NCBI GenBank assembly: GCA_019235885.1
Contig: JAFAKB010000086.1
Coordinates: 1-64,000, forward strand
DNA: 64,000 nt
Origin: Candidatus Eremiobacterota bacterium
GTDB taxonomy: Bacteria > Vulcanimicrobiota > Vulcanimicrobiia > Vulcanimicrobiales > Vulcanimicrobiaceae
Direction of reading: 5' to 3'
Within the stretch, counting starts at the first letter, position 1. Each line of letters starts with the position of its first letter. Below, one piece after another: positions 30,420-42,534 of the stretch. Under the pieces are notes generated by a model. The model was given only the letters and a program-made list of their open reading frames with translations, had not been told where the DNA came from and made no database searches. Made by a program: the position numbers and the translations under genes.

Positions 30420-31952
30420 CTAGGAAGCGTTGCGACGTGTTTCGACGGAGACGACGCGCAAGCGGAGTGCCTCGGCCGCAAGTTCCGCACGGCTGCGCAC
30501 GCCGAATTTGCGGAACAGCGCCTGGACGTGGTGGCCGACGGTCTTCCAAGACACGTGACGTTTGGCCGCGATTTCCTTGTACGTTCTGCCGCGTACGACC
30601 ATGGCCAGGATCTCCGACTCGGTCGGCGTCAGTGCCGGCGCGCCGGCGCCACGTAGATCGGCAAGCTCCCGGGCCATCCAGTAGCGCGGATCCACGTCGC
30701 ACAGCGCCTCTTCGGCGTATCGCTCGTATCGTTTCTTCGCCGTCAGCCGTGCGAGCAACAGCGCGAGTGCGACCGCGCGCCGACGATACCCCTGCGCAGA
30801 GAAGGTTTGAAAGGCGGAGACGAAGAGCGGCAACGCGCCGGCGTCGTCATCGCGCGCGTGACGGATGCGCGCCTCGATCGAGTCCGCCATCGCGGACCAG
30901 CGCGCGAACTCGCGTTCCGGGACGTTCGCGGCCGGCGCTACCACTTCACGGTAGCGCACCAGCAGCGCGGCGGCGCCATCGACCTCGCCACCGCTCACCG
31001 ACTCCTCCGCGAGGTAGAGCGGTAGCAACCGCAGGTCCGCGGGTAAGTCGCGCACGTTGAGCGTCTCGTACGCGGTGCGCGCCCGAGCGAGGAACTCGGC
31101 ATGCGCTTCAGGCTCGGAGACAGCCCGAAACGTCGCGGCGAGTCGGCAGAGCGCGACGACGCGCGAACCCGCGTCTACCGCCAAGCTCTCTGCTTCACGC
31201 GCTGCTGCACGCGCGGCGGGAATGTTGCCGAGCACTTCGTGCATCATCGCGGCGGCGATCAGCGTCCAAAACCGTAGACGGGCGACGCCGCTCACCGACC
31301 AGTCGAACCGGCGCAGCCATGGTTCCAGCAAGGCCCAGTCGCTGACGAGCAGCAGCTCCGGGACCAGCATCGTCAGGCCGTAGAGGACGTTCGCTTCGAC
31401 ATAGCGGTCTGCGTGCGCGCTCGAGCGCAGCGCGACGAGCGCGTCATGGAAGGCGCGCGCAGCGGCCGGGAAGTCGCCTTGCGCCTGCGCTACCCAGCCG
31501 GTGTACTCTAGCGCCCGCGCGTATACGATGTCGGCGTCGGACGGGACTTCACCGAGACAGCGTGAGGCCTTCTCGTAGTCGTGCAGGCGGAACCATGCGA
31601 TGCCTAGGTTCAACGCCAGCTCGGCGCGGATCGTCGGATGGGCGTCCTGCGCCTCATCGGAGATTTCACGCAACATGGCGGTGCCGCGCTCAACCTGACC
31701 CAGCCGCACGTACGCGGCGCCGAGCAGCATTTGAGCGGTGACGCGCTGGTCGAGTCCACCTTCGGTGAAGGCCTGTGCGTGCAGCACTTCGATCGCGCGG
31801 TCCGCTTGGTCGACACGAATGAGCGTTCGCGCACGCAGCAACGCGAGTTCGACGCCGGCCGCCTTGTCGCCGGTCGGAACCGCATCGGCAATCGCGAGCG
31901 CGCGCTCGAAATCGCCTTGGAAAAAGGCTTCACGAACCTGGGAGACCGTCAT
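30420..31952 (-). CDS. LuxR-family regulator with TPR-like sensor region
   Basis: The product is 510 aa. A long array of TPR-like helical pairs occupies about residues 1-430 (for example FFQGDFERALAIADAVPTGD, LGQVERGTAML, LHDYEKASRCLGEVP). A C-terminal LuxR HTH follows at about 440-500 (LTPTESEILAMVVRGRTYKE, HVSWKTVGHHVQALFRKFGV). No ATP-binding (MalT/LAL NB-ARC) domain is seen, so it is a short TPR-LuxR type. ATG at 31950-31952 was preferred over an upstream in-frame start that adds 24 residues of low similarity to the rest. Confidence 0.8.
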   Translation of the reverse strand: MTVSQVREAFFQGDFERALAIADAVPTGDKAAGVELALLRARTLIRVDQADRAIEVLHAQAFTEGGLDQRVTAQMLLGAAYVRLGQVERGTAMLREISDEAQDAHPTIRAELALNLGIAWFRLHDYEKASRCLGEVPSDADIVYARALEYTGWVAQAQGDFPAAARAFHDALVALRSSAHADRYVEANVLYGLTMLVPELLLVSDWALLEPWLRRFDWSVSGVARLRFWTLIAAAMMHEVLGNIPAARAAAREAESLAVDAGSRVVALCRLAATFRAVSEPEAHAEFLARARTAYETLNVRDLPADLRLLPLYLAEESVSGGEVDGAAALLVRYREVVAPAANVPEREFARWSAMADSIEARIRHARDDDAGALPLFVSAFQTFSAQGYRRRAVALALLLARLTAKKRYERYAEEALCDVDPRYWMARELADLRGAGAPALTPTESEILAMVVRGRTYKEIAAKRHVSWKTVGHHVQALFRKFGVRSRAELAAEALRLRVVSVETRRNAS

Positions 31953-32079
31953 GCAGTCTCTGTCACATCGGGCGGGGAAACGGGCGCGCACCTCCACACA
32001 CCGGCGAGGGGAATCGGGCGCCACCCCCGCGCCCGATCAACTGCCTCCCGGCCTGTTCGGCGCTTCCGCGCCTGATCCG

Positions 32080-34585: not shown

Positions 34586-35479
34586 GTGCTCGGCAATGTA
34601 GCGAGGAAGCAACCCCTTACCGGGTGGAGGACCGACATGGAAGTACAGGCTGACCGCGCGAGCGCGCCCCAGGAAGCCCTCATCTTGGCGCATTATGAGC
34701 TCGCCGCACCGCTGCTCGCGAAGAATTTCTCGCTGGCGCCGCTCGTCGTCACCTACTATCCGCACGGCCTGGACGAGGACGCCACGTTCTCCGGTCCTTG
34801 GCACGAGCCGCTCCCGCACACGATCCCGGGCGTGGACGCCGTCTCGTCGAGCGGCACCCACCGCTATCCAGCGTGCGCGGTCAACACCGTGCTGTGGCTC
34901 GCGCACCGCTACGCGGTCGGCTTCAAGTCGTGGACCCCCGCGCCGAAAGACACCGCCGCGGTTGGCGTCGCGCACCTCGTCCTCAAGCCGGTCGCCGACG
35001 GTACGCAAAGACAGCTCCGCGAAGCAATCCTCGTCCTGCGGGACGCGCTCGCCGGCGCGGACCTCAAAGCGATTCCGCTGCTCGACGGCATCCACGGCGC
35101 CGCGCTCTTCATCCCGTTCGCGGACGCGCCGGCGTACGACGCCGTACGCGCGTGGCTGCATGCGCTCGTGAACGGCGCGATCGCTCAGCACCCGCAGCTC
35201 CTCGTCCACGAAAAGCCGCGCCACTTCGTGCATGTCGCGCCGCGCATTGAGTGCACGGTCGTGTCGAATGCCGTCGGCCTGGGCAGTCTGCTTCCGTACT
35301 CGCTGAACGGTACGAGCCGCTTGCCGATGGTCACGCCGATCGATTGGAACGAGTTGGACCACATCAACAACGGCGACGTCCGCGCCGAGAACTCGTATGA
35401 GCGCCTCGCGCAGGAAGACGTCTACCAGCGGCAGGCCGACGCGCTGCGCGGGCAAATCTTCGGCAAGCGCGCAGCCTAG
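34586..35479 (+). CDS. LigD-polymerase (PrimPol)-like protein with degenerate active site
   Basis: The product is 297 aa, resembling the LigD polymerase domain of bacterial NHEJ along its length. Matching blocks are the HYELAAPLLAKNFSLAPLVV helix, YYPHGLDE, SSGTHRYPACAVNTVLWLAH, and the C-terminal LLPYSLNGTSRLPMVTPIDW then NELD (compare PYSLR...VSTPLxWxEL). The catalytic FDLDP motif is replaced by VLKPVAD, the SGxxGxH motif by DGIHGAAL, and the third Asp strand by ECTVVSNA. All three metal-binding Asp residues therefore appear lost. GTG 34586 has AGGAGG upstream. Two nuclease-like genes follow in the same operon. A DNA-end or nucleic-acid-binding role without synthesis is inferred. Confidence 0.65.
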   Translation: MLGNVARKQPLTGWRTDMEVQADRASAPQEALILAHYELAAPLLAKNFSLAPLVVTYYPHGLDEDATFSGPWHEPLPHTIPGVDAVSSSGTHRYPACAVNTVLWLAHRYAVGFKSWTPAPKDTAAVGVAHLVLKPVADGTQRQLREAILVLRDALAGADLKAIPLLDGIHGAALFIPFADAPAYDAVRAWLHALVNGAIAQHPQLLVHEKPRHFVHVAPRIECTVVSNAVGLGSLLPYSLNGTSRLPMVTPIDWNELDHINNGDVRAENSYERLAQEDVYQRQADALRGQIFGKRAA

Positions 35480-35491
35480 AGGCACCCGACG

Positions 35492-36619
35492 GTGTCCGCC
35501 GAGCCGAAGCCGTCCACCCTCGCGCACGGTCACTTCCGGCGTCCCGCACCCGGACGTGGCCCCATTTTGGACGTGGCGCTCCGCCTGCTCGGCGACGGAC
35601 GACCGCATTCCGCACAAGAGCTGCTCGCCGCCGGCATCGCATGCGGGGATTTTCCGGCCGACATGAGGGCCGCGCCCGTTGAAGCGGCGTTGCGCAGCTA
35701 CCTGCAGCGCAAAGGGCAAAGCGGACGCCGGGTCCCGATCGTGCGCGAGCCCGACCGCCGCTATCGCCTTAACCGTCCGCCCGACCTATGGCCCGATCCG
35801 CAAACGCCGCTCGCGTTTCGGCCGCCCGCGCCGGCGACGCTCGCGGCGCTCGAGACGGTCCGCACCACCGCGCTCGGCGAGGATCCGATCGCGTTCGAGC
35901 GCGCGGTCTGCGACTTCTTCGCGACGCTGGGCTTCACCGCGACGCACCTGGGCGGCAACATGCGGCCCGACGGCTACATCGACGCGCCGCTCGGCGTGCT
36001 GGGCTATCGCGTCGTGCTCGAATGCAAGACTGCGGCGACCTACGGACACGTCACGGTTCCCGCAGCCGCCGAGCCGGCACGCTATCGCGACTCGTACGGC
36101 GCGCAGGCGTGCGCGCTCATAGGCGCCGCGTTCTGGGAAGGCAACCCGCTCGCAAGCGAGCTCGCGATTCACGGCGTGAGCGCGTGGACGCTCGACGACC
36201 TGACGGCGCTCGCGCACGCGGGCCTCGACCCGCACGAGATGCGTTCGCTCTTCGCGCCCGGCTTCGCGGAAGACGCGCTCGGCGAGCTGCTGTGGGAACG
36301 CGCGCATGGCGAGGCCAAGCGCGTCGCCGTGATCGCAGAGATGCTGCAGCAGATCGCATCGCGCGAGCAGCGCCTCGCCGCGCGCCCGGCCGACGCGCCG
36401 CGGCTCACAGTAGAAGCCGCAATCCTATGCGTCAACGAAGCGCTGGCCGACGCGGGGAGCGACGCGCGCGCCGAGCGTGGCGACGTCGAAGCCGCGTTCA
36501 CGTGGATGACGCATCCGCTCGTTCGCGCCGCCGTGTGGGCCGACGCTTCGCACGACGACATCGTCGTCGTCGCCCTTGGCGTGCCCGCGCACAACGACAC
36601 TGATCATGCGGCAAGCTGA
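35492..36619 (+). CDS. Winged-helix plus PD-(D/E)xK restriction-endonuclease-like protein 1
   Basis: The product is 375 aa. The N-terminal domain (about residues 25-95: ILDVALRLLGDGRPHSAQEL, LRSYLQRKG, DRRYRLN) looks like a HARE-HTH winged helix. It is followed by a restriction-endonuclease fold (about 125-210). There FERAVCDFFATLGFTATHLG precedes PDGYIDAPLG and VVLECKTA, which supply the Asp and the E-x-K catalytic triad. A helical C-terminal domain with AFTWMTHPLVRAAVWAD follows. Likely a DNA-cleaving protein. GTG start at 35492, 12 bases after the PrimPol-like gene. A tandem paralogue overlaps its end. Confidence 0.75.
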   Translation: MSAEPKPSTLAHGHFRRPAPGRGPILDVALRLLGDGRPHSAQELLAAGIACGDFPADMRAAPVEAALRSYLQRKGQSGRRVPIVREPDRRYRLNRPPDLWPDPQTPLAFRPPAPATLAALETVRTTALGEDPIAFERAVCDFFATLGFTATHLGGNMRPDGYIDAPLGVLGYRVVLECKTAATYGHVTVPAAAEPARYRDSYGAQACALIGAAFWEGNPLASELAIHGVSAWTLDDLTALAHAGLDPHEMRSLFAPGFAEDALGELLWERAHGEAKRVAVIAEMLQQIASREQRLAARPADAPRLTVEAAILCVNEALADAGSDARAERGDVEAAFTWMTHPLVRAAVWADASHDDIVVVALGVPAHNDTDHAAS

Positions 36620-37712
36620 TCCTCCGCATCACCACCCCCGTCATCGCCATCACCGCCGCCATAGCGGCGCGCTGCTCGACCTCATCCGCGAGGTCCTCGC
36701 CGACGGGCGTCCCCGAACGCCCAGCGAGATCCTCACGGAAGGCCAAGCCCGCGGCCTCTTTCCGGCGGGATACGTGGTGGAGAACGTGACGAACGCGATC
36801 CACGGCTACGTCGGGCGCAAGCAGCTTCGGGGCCGCAAACCGTTCGCCGTCCAAGACCCCGACGGCCGCTATCGCCTCAACCAAATCCCCGATCCGTGGC
36901 CCGAACCGTCCTCGCCTCTGCCGACGCGTTCGCCGTCGCACGAAGCGCTCGCCGCGCTCGACGTGGCGCGCCGAACCGCGACGGGCGCTGATCCCGCTGC
37001 CTTCGAGCGCGCGGTGTGCGACGTGTTCGCCGCGCTCGGATTCGTAGCGACGCATCTCGGCGCAAATGACCAGCCCGACGGCCTCCTCGACGCGCCACTC
37101 GGCGCACTAGGTTATCGCGTCGTGCTCGAATGCAAGACCGCCGTGCCGGGCAAGGGCGTCGGTCTCCCGAACGCCGCCGAGCCGGCCCGCTACCGCGAGC
37201 CGTACGGCGCGGAACGCTGCGCGCTCGTCGGTCCGGAATTCACCTCGCAACCTGTGCTCCTCAGCGAGCTGAACGTGCACTGTGTCAGCGCCTGGACGAT
37301 CGACGACCTCGCAACGATCGTCAACGCCGCGCTGAACCCGTACGAGCTTCGCCGGGCGTTCGAGCCCGGGTTCGCAGAGGACACGCTCGCCGATCTAATC
37401 TGGGAGCGCTCACACGGCGTGCGCAAGCGCATTGCGGTCATCTCCGAACTACTGCAAAAGATCGCCGGCCACGAACAGCACATCGCCCTCGCCGCGAAAC
37501 CCGAGCTCGCCGCGCACCTCACCGTCGACTCCGCCATGATTTGCGTCAACGAGTGGCTCGCCCGCCACGCCGGCGAAGCCCGCTGTGAACGCGCCGACGT
37601 CGAAGCAGCCTTCGACTGGATGACTCAGCCCCTCGTCGGCGCAGCAGTGTGGGCCGACGACGCAAAGCGCGCGATCGTTGTAACCTCACTGGGGCTCTCT
37701 GCTGAGAGGTGA
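36606..37712 (+). CDS. Winged-helix plus PD-(D/E)xK restriction-endonuclease-like protein 2
   Basis: The product is 368 aa and a close paralogue of the preceding protein, with the same order of domains. A His-rich start (HHHPRHRHHRRH) leads to a winged helix (LLDLIREVLADGRPRTPSEI, DGRYRLN) and the nuclease core FERAVCDVFAALGFVATHLG, PDGLLDAPLG, VVLECKTA. A C-terminal domain ends with AFDWMTQPLVGAAVWAD. All catalytic residues are kept. ATG 36606 overlaps the previous gene by 14 bases. Two diverged active copies side by side suggest they work as a pair or recognise different targets. Confidence 0.75.
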   Translation: MRQADPPHHHPRHRHHRRHSGALLDLIREVLADGRPRTPSEILTEGQARGLFPAGYVVENVTNAIHGYVGRKQLRGRKPFAVQDPDGRYRLNQIPDPWPEPSSPLPTRSPSHEALAALDVARRTATGADPAAFERAVCDVFAALGFVATHLGANDQPDGLLDAPLGALGYRVVLECKTAVPGKGVGLPNAAEPARYREPYGAERCALVGPEFTSQPVLLSELNVHCVSAWTIDDLATIVNAALNPYELRRAFEPGFAEDTLADLIWERSHGVRKRIAVISELLQKIAGHEQHIALAAKPELAAHLTVDSAMICVNEWLARHAGEARCERADVEAAFDWMTQPLVGAAVWADDAKRAIVVTSLGLSAER

Positions 37713-38327: not shown

Positions 38328-39344
38328 CTAGAGCTGTTGGGACCGTCGATCCGACGCGTCGTCCTCCGCACCGGCGCGCGCTTGCAGCCGTTCCAGCCAC
38401 GTCTTTGCGCGCTCCATATTCCCGTAAGGATCCGCGATCACGGCCTGTATCTCGTCAGGCTCGTAACGATAGAGGACGTGCGTGACGCTGAGTCCCTGGT
38501 CCTCCGACGTCAAAGCATACCCCTCGATGAGTCGGAATCGAGGATTGAGAAGCGCTCGAACACAATCCGAAAACCAGTTGGCCGCCTTCGTCGCCTCTCG
38601 CATGAGTTCGTGGAGCCGCTCGACCCACCCGTTGTAATCCGCTACGAGCTTCTCATAGTCGTCGTTATCCGACGCCTGCTTGTAGAACTTTTCGGCCCAG
38701 ATGGTCGCCCCGTTCTTTTCGAAGAAGTCACTCCAGTCGGAATGGACCTGGAAATGTTCCAGCGCGGTGGCGAGAACGAATCCCAGGCGGATCGATGCGG
38801 TTTCGAACGCGGGGTAGGTTTTGGGCCACGGCGTGCGCAGAGTCCGCTCTCGAAAGCTTCGGATGATCTCGATATTCGCATGCCTGAAATACGGAGACGG
38901 CGACATCGGACCAAACGTAATGTCGTCCCAGCGTTCGAGGAATTCCATGCTGACGAAATCGACCAGGTCGGCGTAGAGGTATTCGGCCGCCGCGGCTTTG
39001 GGGTCCGTCGGCGACAGTTTGTCCGCGACCCAGGTCTCGTGTTCGTCCTTAATGCTGTGCAGAACTGAAACGGTATACGTCTCGATATCTTGATCGACTA
39101 TTCTGTGGTGAGTCGGACAGAGCAGGATCAAATTGGAGTATGAATTACGCTGGCGGTCCGACAGCGCCGAGTCGCCACGCGGCCCGCCCGGCTGCTCCGC
39201 CACGATGTGCGCCATCTCTCCGATCGTGAACCCCCCGCCGCCCACGGCTGGATTCTGAGCAAGAATCCGACGGCACTCCGGTATCGCGCAGCGGTTCGCT
39301 GCGAAACCCCATAGCAGCTTGATGTCTTTCTCGAGGATGGCCAC
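38328..39344 (-). CDS. HNH endonuclease with large C-terminal domain
   Basis: The product is 338 aa. Residues about 10-100 form an HNH nuclease: NRCAIPECRRIL, GEMAHIVAEQPGGPRGDSAL, NLILLCPTHHRIVD. A C-terminal region of about 230 aa has no recognised domain and is rich in aromatic residues and helices (VDFVSMEFLERWDDITFG, EKLVADYNGWVERLHELMRE). The HNH motif residues (His pair, Asn, His) are present, so activity is plausible. It lies in the accessory region next to the PrimPol/nuclease cassette and may belong to the same defence or mobile context. Confidence 0.75.
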   Translation of the reverse strand: MAILEKDIKLLWGFAANRCAIPECRRILAQNPAVGGGGFTIGEMAHIVAEQPGGPRGDSALSDRQRNSYSNLILLCPTHHRIVDQDIETYTVSVLHSIKDEHETWVADKLSPTDPKAAAAEYLYADLVDFVSMEFLERWDDITFGPMSPSPYFRHANIEIIRSFRERTLRTPWPKTYPAFETASIRLGFVLATALEHFQVHSDWSDFFEKNGATIWAEKFYKQASDNDDYEKLVADYNGWVERLHELMREATKAANWFSDCVRALLNPRFRLIEGYALTSEDQGLSVTHVLYRYEPDEIQAVIADPYGNMERAKTWLERLQARAGAEDDASDRRSQQL

Positions 39345-39775: not shown

Positions 39776-39824
39776 TCGTCTGGGCGCGCAAGTGCCACAG
39801 AAGCAGTTTTCGGAGATTTACTCC

Positions 39825-39934
39825 GCGCTAACGTCGAAGCAGCGTTCGACTGGATGACTCAGCCGCTCGTCGGCGCAGCAGTGTGGACCGACGGCGCGAA
39901 ACACGCGATCGTCGAAACGTCGCCGCAGCTATAA
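39825..39934 (+). pseudogene. 3' fragment of a third nuclease paralogue
   Basis: This 110-base stretch matches the last part of the gene ending at 37712. It encodes VEAAFDWMTQPLVGAAVWTD then GAKHAIVETS and a stop. Nothing upstream matches the rest of the gene. It is a leftover of a former third copy or of a recombination event and abuts RNA element copy 2. Confidence 0.75.
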
Positions 39935-41159: not shown

Positions 41160-41392
41160 ACCGCCGGCCTCCTTCCTTGCTTACTTTCAGTATCGCAGGA
41201 TCGGGGCGGTTTCGCGTTGACCGGCGTCAACAAATCGCAGGATGTGACCTGCGTCCGTCCCCGTGCGGCCATTCGAGGGACCCGCGACCGGCGTCGTTGC
41301 GCCGGGTGCTCCGCGGGAGCACAATGGTCGGGATGGGGCTCGGCCGAAGGCGACGGGCCGACCCGACACCACTCGCGAGGGGAACCGATAGG

Positions 41393-42298
41393 ATGCTTGC
41401 TTCGATCCGCCGGCCGACGTTCGAGGACCTCAACCTCTCCACCGGCAAGCGCGCCCGGCTTTGGAACATGATGTACGGCCACGGCCCGGCCAACGGGACG
41501 CTGATGCTGCTGCCGATCGACCAGGGCCTGGAGCACGGACCGGTCGATTTCTTCGACAACCCGGACGCGATCGACACCGACTGGGTGCTGCGGCTGGCGG
41601 TCGAAGGCAACTTCTCCGGGATCGCCTACCACGTCGGCCTCGCCGAGAAGTACCACCAGCAGTACGCCGGGCGCGTCCCGCTGGTGCTCAAAGTCAACGG
41701 CAAGACGAACGTTCCGCCCGACGACAACTCGTTCAGCCCGCTGACCTCCAGCGTGGAAGACGCGGTGCGGCTGGGCGCGAGCGCGGTCGGTTACACCGTG
41801 TATGTCGGCTCGCCGGCGCAAGACCGCGACATCCGGCAGGCCAACGACGTGCGCCGCGACTGCGAGAAGTACGGGCTCCCGCTGATCGTGTGGTCGTATC
41901 CGCGCGGCTCGGCGGTGAAGGCGAAAGGCGGACAGGACTCGCTCTACGCGGTCGACTACGCGGCGCGCGTCGCGTGCGAGATCGGCGCGGACATCGTGAA
42001 GCTGAACGTGCCGCATTCCGAAGAAGCGGCGGCTGCGGCGCCCAAACCGTACAACACGCTCGCGATGGACGAGCTCGACGGGCTGCGCAAGGTCGTGAAG
42101 TCCGCGGGGCGCACGCTGGTGCTCGTCTCGGGCGGCTCGAAGCTCAGCGACGAGGACACCGTGCACAAGGCGCGGCTGGCGATGGAAGCCGGCTGCGTCG
42201 GCTTGATCTTCGGGCGGAACATGTGGCAGCGCAAGTGGGACGACGCGCTCGCGATGGCGAGCCGCATGCACGACCTGATGAAGGAGTTCGGTCAATAG
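41393..42298 (+). CDS. Class I fructose-bisphosphate aldolase, FbaB/DhnA type
   Basis: The enzyme cleaves fructose-1,6-bisphosphate in glycolysis/gluconeogenesis through a Schiff-base lysine. The 301-aa product has LLPIDQGLEHGPVDFF near residue 38, GKTNVPPDDNSF, the Schiff-base region GADIVKLNVP near residue 200, and the phosphate-binding end LVLVSGGSKLSDED ... GLIFGRNMWQR. It belongs to the archaeal-type/DhnA family. ATG 41393 has GAGGGG upstream; an earlier in-frame start at 41177 covers non-homologous sequence. A NifU-domain gene follows two bases later. Confidence 0.92.
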   Translation: MLASIRRPTFEDLNLSTGKRARLWNMMYGHGPANGTLMLLPIDQGLEHGPVDFFDNPDAIDTDWVLRLAVEGNFSGIAYHVGLAEKYHQQYAGRVPLVLKVNGKTNVPPDDNSFSPLTSSVEDAVRLGASAVGYTVYVGSPAQDRDIRQANDVRRDCEKYGLPLIVWSYPRGSAVKAKGGQDSLYAVDYAARVACEIGADIVKLNVPHSEEAAAAAPKPYNTLAMDELDGLRKVVKSAGRTLVLVSGGSKLSDEDTVHKARLAMEAGCVGLIFGRNMWQRKWDDALAMASRMHDLMKEFGQ

Positions 42299-42300
42299 TC

Positions 42301-42534
42301 ATGTCCGCGGCGACGGTCGAGAGCCGAATTGAAGCGGCGCTCGATCGCATCCGGCCCGCGATCCGCCGCGACGGCGGAGACGTTTGGCTGATCAAAGTCG
42401 ACGACGACGTCGCGTACGTGCAGATGATCGGCGCGTGCGGGGGGTGTCCGGCGTCCAATGCTACCTTGAAAAACGGCATCGAGGCGGTCGTGCGCGAGGA
42501 CGTGCCGGAGATTCGCGCGGTGGAGCAGCTCTGA
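42301..42534 (+). CDS. NifU C-terminal-domain Fe-S scaffold protein
   Basis: The product is 77 aa, a stand-alone NifU-type domain: IEAALDRIRPAIRRDGGDVW, then the cluster-binding C-x2-C motif in GACGGCPASNATLKNGIEAV. It holds or transfers Fe-S clusters to client proteins. It starts two bases after the aldolase stop and may be co-transcribed with it. Confidence 0.92.
   Translation: MSAATVESRIEAALDRIRPAIRRDGGDVWLIKVDDDVAYVQMIGACGGCPASNATLKNGIEAVVREDVPEIRAVEQL

Follow-up and report, generated by a model that had tools for sequence, protein, structure and literature searches.

A LigD polymerase-like fold without its catalytic residues is linked to a FokI-like nuclease across Candidatus Eremiobacterota

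In Candidatus Eremiobacterota, sequence comparisons support an evolutionary link between a protein that keeps the fold of the LigD polymerase domain (LigD-Pol) but not its catalytic residues and a PD-(D/E)xK nuclease whose active site is intact. The case was met as a three-gene cassette, A-B-C, in a stretch of 64,000 nucleotides (the window) on contig C86 (JAFAKB010000086.1) of a 4.5-Mb genome that is 95% complete. The original prediction, made from the DNA letters alone, had described a dead polymerase-like protein followed by two nucleases; the three open reading frames (ORFs) lie where it put them, at 34586-37712, all on the plus strand (Table 1). Across the phylum, the predicted unit is a conserved, apparently lineage-specific two-domain system of A and one nuclease, and the doubling of the nuclease is peculiar to the window. 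The named relatives of the cassette in the genome collection belong to Candidatus Eremiobacterota/WPS-2, a name that NCBI now places under Vulcanimicrobiota; searches of Pfam, NCBIfam, PADLOC and the literature did not turn up the combination. Our preferred reading, held with only slightly more belief than doubt, is that these genes encode a lineage-specific nuclease of genome conflict, in the style of stand-alone (type IV-like) restriction or defence, in which the dead polymerase would serve as a recognition or gating domain.

A polymerase fold without polymerase residues

Protein A matches the Pfam family LigD_Prim-Pol (PF21686) with an E-value of 2.4e-19 and the LigD-Pol structure 2iru with 1.9e-6 as a single sequence and 1.7e-27 as a profile; in the AlphaFold2 model of a fused homologue, the A half matches the polymerase domain (PolDom) of Mycobacterium tuberculosis LigD (4mky) with an E-value of 5e-17 and a template modelling (TM) score of 0.79 to the target. 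The fold was thus predicted correctly, and so was the loss of its active site. Forty-two members of the A family and 12 canonical Eremiobacterota LigD-Pols were aligned to PolDom, using a reference that agrees with the PDB chain in its central part and whose numbering fits every residue given in PMC8656161 and PMC3898472. The metal ligands D137 and D139 of motif I, as well as H178 of the SGxxGxH motif (motif II), are kept in none of the 42 and the remaining metal ligand, D227, in six, vs 12 of 12 canonical enzymes at each position; the window protein has lost all four. The sites that hold the nucleoside triphosphate (NTP) fare unevenly: S172 is kept in a single A-family member, and R244, present in all 12 controls, is retained in 28 of 42 and lost in the window protein. 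The 5'-phosphate pocket (N13, K16 and K26; roles from PMC3898472 and PMC8656161) and R53, each present in 12 of 12 controls, are unconserved in the A family. What the family retains is P55, G57, N231 and P240-Y241, together with an aromatic residue at position 64 (39 of 42); the PolDom loop 1 segment is missing in about half of its members. Having lost the catalytic residues and the pocket, A should have a LigD-Pol fold that neither holds catalytic metals nor polymerises, and that does not bind DNA ends via the known pocket. The idea that it senses DNA ends or nucleotides as LigD is known to do is unsupported, given the loss of S172, H178 and N13/K16/K26 and the genomes that keep the system and have no detectable Ku (see below).

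If A has lost its chemistry, is it simply decaying? The ratio of nonsynonymous to synonymous substitution rates (dN/dS) of A is ~0.17-0.46 in most close pairs and reaches up to 0.58, indicating purifying selection rather than decay. Still under selection, A is the faster of the two partners: its dN in close pairs is 0.126 vs 0.059 for the nuclease, 0.156 vs 0.089 and 0.344 vs 0.162, and its amino-acid change is about twice that of the nuclease. Loop 1 touches DNA in LigD, and where the corresponding segment is present in A it is the most variable part of the protein (0.62 vs 0.31 overall, from 60 comparisons only). Fast change in A and a variable loop 1 region would fit a recognition surface in flux, although relaxed constraint may also account for them.

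Intact nucleases closest to FokI

Proteins B and C share a layout in which an N-terminal winged helix precedes the PD-(D/E)xK core and a helical region follows it; in the AlphaFold2 model of B (predicted local distance difference test score, pLDDT, 89), the winged helix spans residues 24-93 and the C-terminal region, which has winged-helix character, residues 300-360. Both proteins retain E136, D160, E177 and K179 (B numbering), bearing out the D...ExK core proposed at the outset, here with its alpha-helical Glu, and the family is just as strict: K179 is found in 33 of 34 copies, and E136, D160 and E177 wherever a copy has a residue at that position. The best structural matches of B (Foldseek) are to FokI (2fok/1fok; E 1.2e-6), followed by HindIII and AspBHI, while the match to a FokI sequence profile is marginal (E 0.009). 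B and C are thus predicted to be intact nucleases whose nearest fold is FokI, and not Mrr: the Mrr_cat profile scores them at 17.3 and 15.5 bits, below its cut-off of 21. The winged helices, which structure prediction recovers, had been called HARE-like, a label that profiles do not support: the N-terminal winged helix gave no match to the Pfam HARE profile at E-values up to 5. PADLOC models yield only generic REase_II matches to the nucleases (E 2e-4 and 2e-5) and none to A.

Like LigD polymerase/Prim-PolC, a member of the archaeo-eukaryotic primases (AEPs; 2iru, 4mky and M. smegmatis 5op0), A aligns over its full length, shares the fold and keeps the residues listed above; unlike it, A lacks the catalytic and pocket residues and is partnered by a nuclease instead of a ligase or Ku. 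CRISPR-associated Prim-Pol (CAPP; 7nqd) and other AEPs from mobile or defence contexts share the fold in such a setting, but those are catalytically active and match A only weakly in structure. B and C resemble the type IIS enzyme FokI in that it is their closest solved fold, in the spacing of the D...D/ExK core and in carrying winged helices on the same chain; they differ in that identity in the structural match is ~16%, a dead LigD-Pol replaces the FokI recognition module and no cognate methyltransferase pair was recognised, methyltransferases being seen beside only a few copies and not in the window. Also alike, with a winged helix, a PD-(D/E)xK domain and usually no methyltransferase, are the N6-methyladenine-dependent type IV winged-helix fusion endonucleases (PMC11037411) and the HARE-HTH-REase proteins of phosphorothioate systems (PMC10853773); B and C are set apart from these by winged helices that are not HARE by profile, by the extra C-terminal one and by the dead polymerase partner.

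Coupling of A to the nuclease across the phylum

The survey covered 149 genomes of the phylum, with an alignment of fused A-nuclease proteins used for the genome-collection scan. Copies of A were counted if longer than 150 residues (n = 43); the A profile splits the family (E below ~1e-40) from true LigD-Pols (E above 1e-36), and the nuclease beside A at locus L053 was identified by profile. The nuclease family occurs in 38 genomes, A in 30 and both in 27 (Fisher p 1e-17; our own tally of the two genome lists). Twenty-six A copies are fused to the nuclease and 11 lie adjacent to it; of the other six, one is at the end of a contig and five are solitary. A and nuclease are associated at 37 of the 43 A loci, and the adjacent genes occur with A first, with the nuclease first, divergently and convergently, so the link outlives rearrangement. 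The original prediction could have failed in two ways, by A falling outside the PrimPol fold or by an association confined to one genome; neither is what we found. Tree distances of A and nuclease correlate at 0.77 in fused proteins and at 0.35 in split pairs, and this weaker agreement suggests that split pairs exchange partners.

The coupling of a PrimPol fold to a nuclease therefore stands, at 37 of 43 loci; the idea that paired nucleases are a conserved trait is not supported. B and C group as sisters in the tree of nucleases and a second locus with two intact nucleases was not found among the surveyed copies, so the pairing is best explained as a local tandem duplication. A remnant of a third nuclease copy downstream of C appears, from its sequence, to be evidence of past tandem copies and their loss.

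The distribution is uneven. The window genome carries four A and eight nuclease copies, several congeners carry none, and copies are often multiple per genome, patchy and accompanied by decaying ones, a pattern that resembles defence genes. Many divergent copies per genome, patchily spread and often decayed, would also be produced by a selfish, homing-like gene, which would be spread by its own nuclease, with A directing it to the insertion site or helping repair. Against this, the 1.5-kb flanks of 22 copies have no common ends except between homologous loci, a preference for tRNA sites was looked for and not seen, no recombinase was found with the copies, and most of these are paralogues at 40-55% identity rather than products of recent jumps. 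We regard this explanation as distinctly unlikely.

Ancestry in a polymerase family of non-homologous end joining (NHEJ) raises another option, that Ku or the LigD machinery recruits A to DNA ends and the nuclease trims them; Ku is present in 99 of the 149 genomes. It was not detected, however, in at least four near-complete genomes (95-98%) with intact fused genes (G019, G029, G031 and G036), nor was canonical LigD-Pol in G019, G031 and G036. Ku recruitment is therefore not required, and A as an end-joining accessory was rejected because the fused genes are kept in genomes without detectable Ku. With the N13/K16/K26 pocket and R53 lost, loop 1 missing in about half of the family and no linkage to ku or lig genes, a repair role of this kind is the least probable of the explanations considered.

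Neighbouring genes

An all-against-all comparison of neighbour genes showed an M4 peptidase with an HELTH motif near several copies. M4 peptidases occur at just 12 places in nine of the 149 genomes, and six of the 12 adjoin A/nuclease copies, as against the ~0.01 predicted by a rough uniform model that assumes a mean genome size and cassette count. These six are G000:C10, G001:C7, G007:C257, G007:C24 (nuclease only), G026:C53 and G026:C2 (broken); because the loci G001:C7 and G007:C257 are homologous, the six include at least one non-independent pair. The M4 gene lies immediately next to A at four A loci, from an overlap of ~4 nt to a gap of 12 nt. Intact copies retain HELTH and GIPNH, and matches to the protealysin propeptide are weak (E 0.0077 to 0.09). 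Since other defence systems are known to use nucleases that a protease activates (PMC12799240), a role of the peptidase as a regulatory third component of the module is plausible by analogy.

The analogy can be pushed further: M4 might be the normal activator, in cis or in trans, of a protease-gated nuclease or abortive-infection system, cutting a dead-polymerase lid off the nuclease much as in Hachiman or AVAST. The adjacency of half of the phylum's rare M4 peptidases, the four abutting genes, the motifs kept by intact copies and the nuclease proenzymes known to be cut by a partner protease (PMC12799240) all speak for such gating. Hachiman/AVAST/Lamassu/DRT and Canu (PMC12799240) indeed share with our loci a protease gene that recurs beside a nuclease. 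In those systems, however, the protease is trypsin-like or a caspase and the nuclease has a metallo-β-lactamase (MBL) fold, whereas here they would be M4 and PD-(D/E)xK, with the protease present at a minority of loci: no M4 peptidase was found near the window locus or most other A/nuclease loci. As the normal route of activation, protease gating seems unlikely.

Known defence genes near the copies include Cas4-Cas1 at L132, Cas8c at L139, a Dam-type methyltransferase at L145, a C5-methyltransferase at L148, a second one together with a type II helicase at L149, and a restriction endonuclease (REase) at L055. A C5-methyltransferase with a Vsr-like gene recurs beside fused genes at L055 and, as homologous frames, at L148 and L149, which would suit a Type II restriction enzyme that has A as its specificity subunit and a methyltransferase encoded separately. 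Such a methyltransferase was recognised beside these few copies only, with none in the window, and the methyltransferase loci have candidate partners of their own (REase_II at L055 and an NgoMIV-type enzyme among the neighbours). We consider a Type II enzyme very unlikely.

The window locus and other features

A 12-nt gap separates A from B, B and C overlap, and AGGAGGT, a good ribosome-binding site, lies upstream of the GTG start of gene A, so A-B-C is read as one operon; a sigma-70-like promoter for it was looked for and not found. Alternative starts are an in-frame ATG at 34637 in gene A and, in gene C, an ATG at 36606 within the overlap with the end of B. At 38328-39344 (minus strand), 0.6 kb downstream of the cassette, lies an HNH-type effector gene whose product matches PADLOC PDC-M68A (E 2.3e-34) and CBASS/SAVED-HNH effectors at its N-terminus, with a weak HNH_2 match. 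Further on, an aldolase and NifU-like segment (41278-42530) has, relative to its neighbours, the opposite orientation to that in congeners, and to the left of it lies a variable region without conserved synteny; comparison with congeners at this aldolase anchor found no clean empty site. Upstream, at 30420-32024 (minus strand), is a LuxR-type regulator of a family that is greatly expanded in the genus, with 18 matches in the window genome and 31 in G007.

Table 1. Coordinates of the window genes and of related features at other loci (loci labelled L)
Feature	Position	Strand	Remarks
Gene A	34586-35479	+	LigD-Pol (AEP/PrimPol) fold; metal-binding Asp and motif II His all lost; GTG start
Gene B	35492-36619	+	FokI-like PD-(D/E)xK nuclease (predicted) flanked by winged helices
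Gene C	36576-37712	+	Tandem paralogue of B, same nuclease core, 55% identical
Remnant of third nuclease copy	39821-39925	+	C-terminal ~35 codons; DNA 88% identical to 3' end of C
A-only gene	L126:4912-5691		Beside GNAT acetyltransferase gene
A-only gene	L128:2963-3763		Beside GNAT acetyltransferase gene
A-only gene	L129:2580-3329		Beside GNAT acetyltransferase gene
A-only gene	L151:4009-4833		Beside GNAT acetyltransferase gene
A-only gene	L152:4997-5791		Beside GNAT acetyltransferase gene
M4 metallopeptidase gene	L048:6307-7335		Beside A/nuclease copy
M4 metallopeptidase gene	L056:4530-5531		Beside A/nuclease copy
M4 metallopeptidase gene	L058:4038-5042		Beside A/nuclease copy
M4 metallopeptidase gene	L060:5286-6329		Beside A/nuclease copy
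M4 metallopeptidase gene	L188:5003-6001		Beside A/nuclease copy
C5-methyltransferase and Vsr-like gene near fused A-nuclease	L055:3227-5240		Vsr profile-tested here only
C5-methyltransferase and Vsr-like gene near fused A-nuclease	L148:3826-5516		Homologous frames
C5-methyltransferase and Vsr-like gene near fused A-nuclease	L149:9916-11431		Homologous frames

What the system may do

In the preferred reading, a genome-conflict nuclease with a dead polymerase as its recognition or gating domain, protein A would select the target or gate the enzyme, and B, with its duplicate C, would be the effector nuclease and would probably cut as a dimer. Protein A, together with the winged helices, would engage a feature of incoming DNA or of a DNA-bound protein; two nuclease domains would then come together, and the DNA would be cut. 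At some loci, the M4 protease might activate or remove a component. A may license cleavage, as originally suggested, and the further suggestion of an anti-phage or anti-plasmid module fits the frequent defence neighbours. Anatomy, distribution and rates lend this mechanism moderate support, and active-site residues that stay invariant in the nuclease while those of A are lost count in its favour.

Several observations weigh against it. First, five A copies, which form a single lineage specific to one genus and of which at least four lie in a conserved stretch near rpoB, are dead polymerases without a nuclease, inherited vertically; their retention next to housekeeping genes implies that A also has a use without the nuclease. 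Second, the fused A-nuclease model has a predicted TM score (pTM) of 0.49, which gives no fixed arrangement of the two parts. Third, a known defence system is missing from the immediate surroundings of most copies. Their neighbours do match many more PADLOC families than control genes do, with 141 families for 106 genes and 213 for 129, compared with 50 for 117 controls; this excess is supportive only, because the control is small (20 arbitrary stretches) and unmatched and the family counts are redundant. Finally, searches of phages, plasmids and IMG/VR found no relative of the A-nuclease combination, the phage and plasmid matches covering only the polymerase half, so mobility is unsupported. 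The more ambitious proposal, that the phylum has an immune system of its own, so far undescribed, with an inactivated repair polymerase recognising the target for a FokI-like nuclease and an M4 metallopeptidase as regulator, is offered tentatively and with more doubt than belief.

Inactivated enzymes that serve as recognition modules are a recurring and poorly understood source of new defence systems. Protein A, apparently devoid of chemistry, of NTP ligands and of an end-binding pocket, yet selected and tied to a nuclease across a phylum, would offer a concrete case in which to test how a polymerase becomes a sensor or scaffold. If functional, the M4 link would bring a new protease class and a new nuclease fold into the protease-controlled nucleases, and a recognition domain on a FokI-like cutter would make the fused proteins a candidate programmable architecture.

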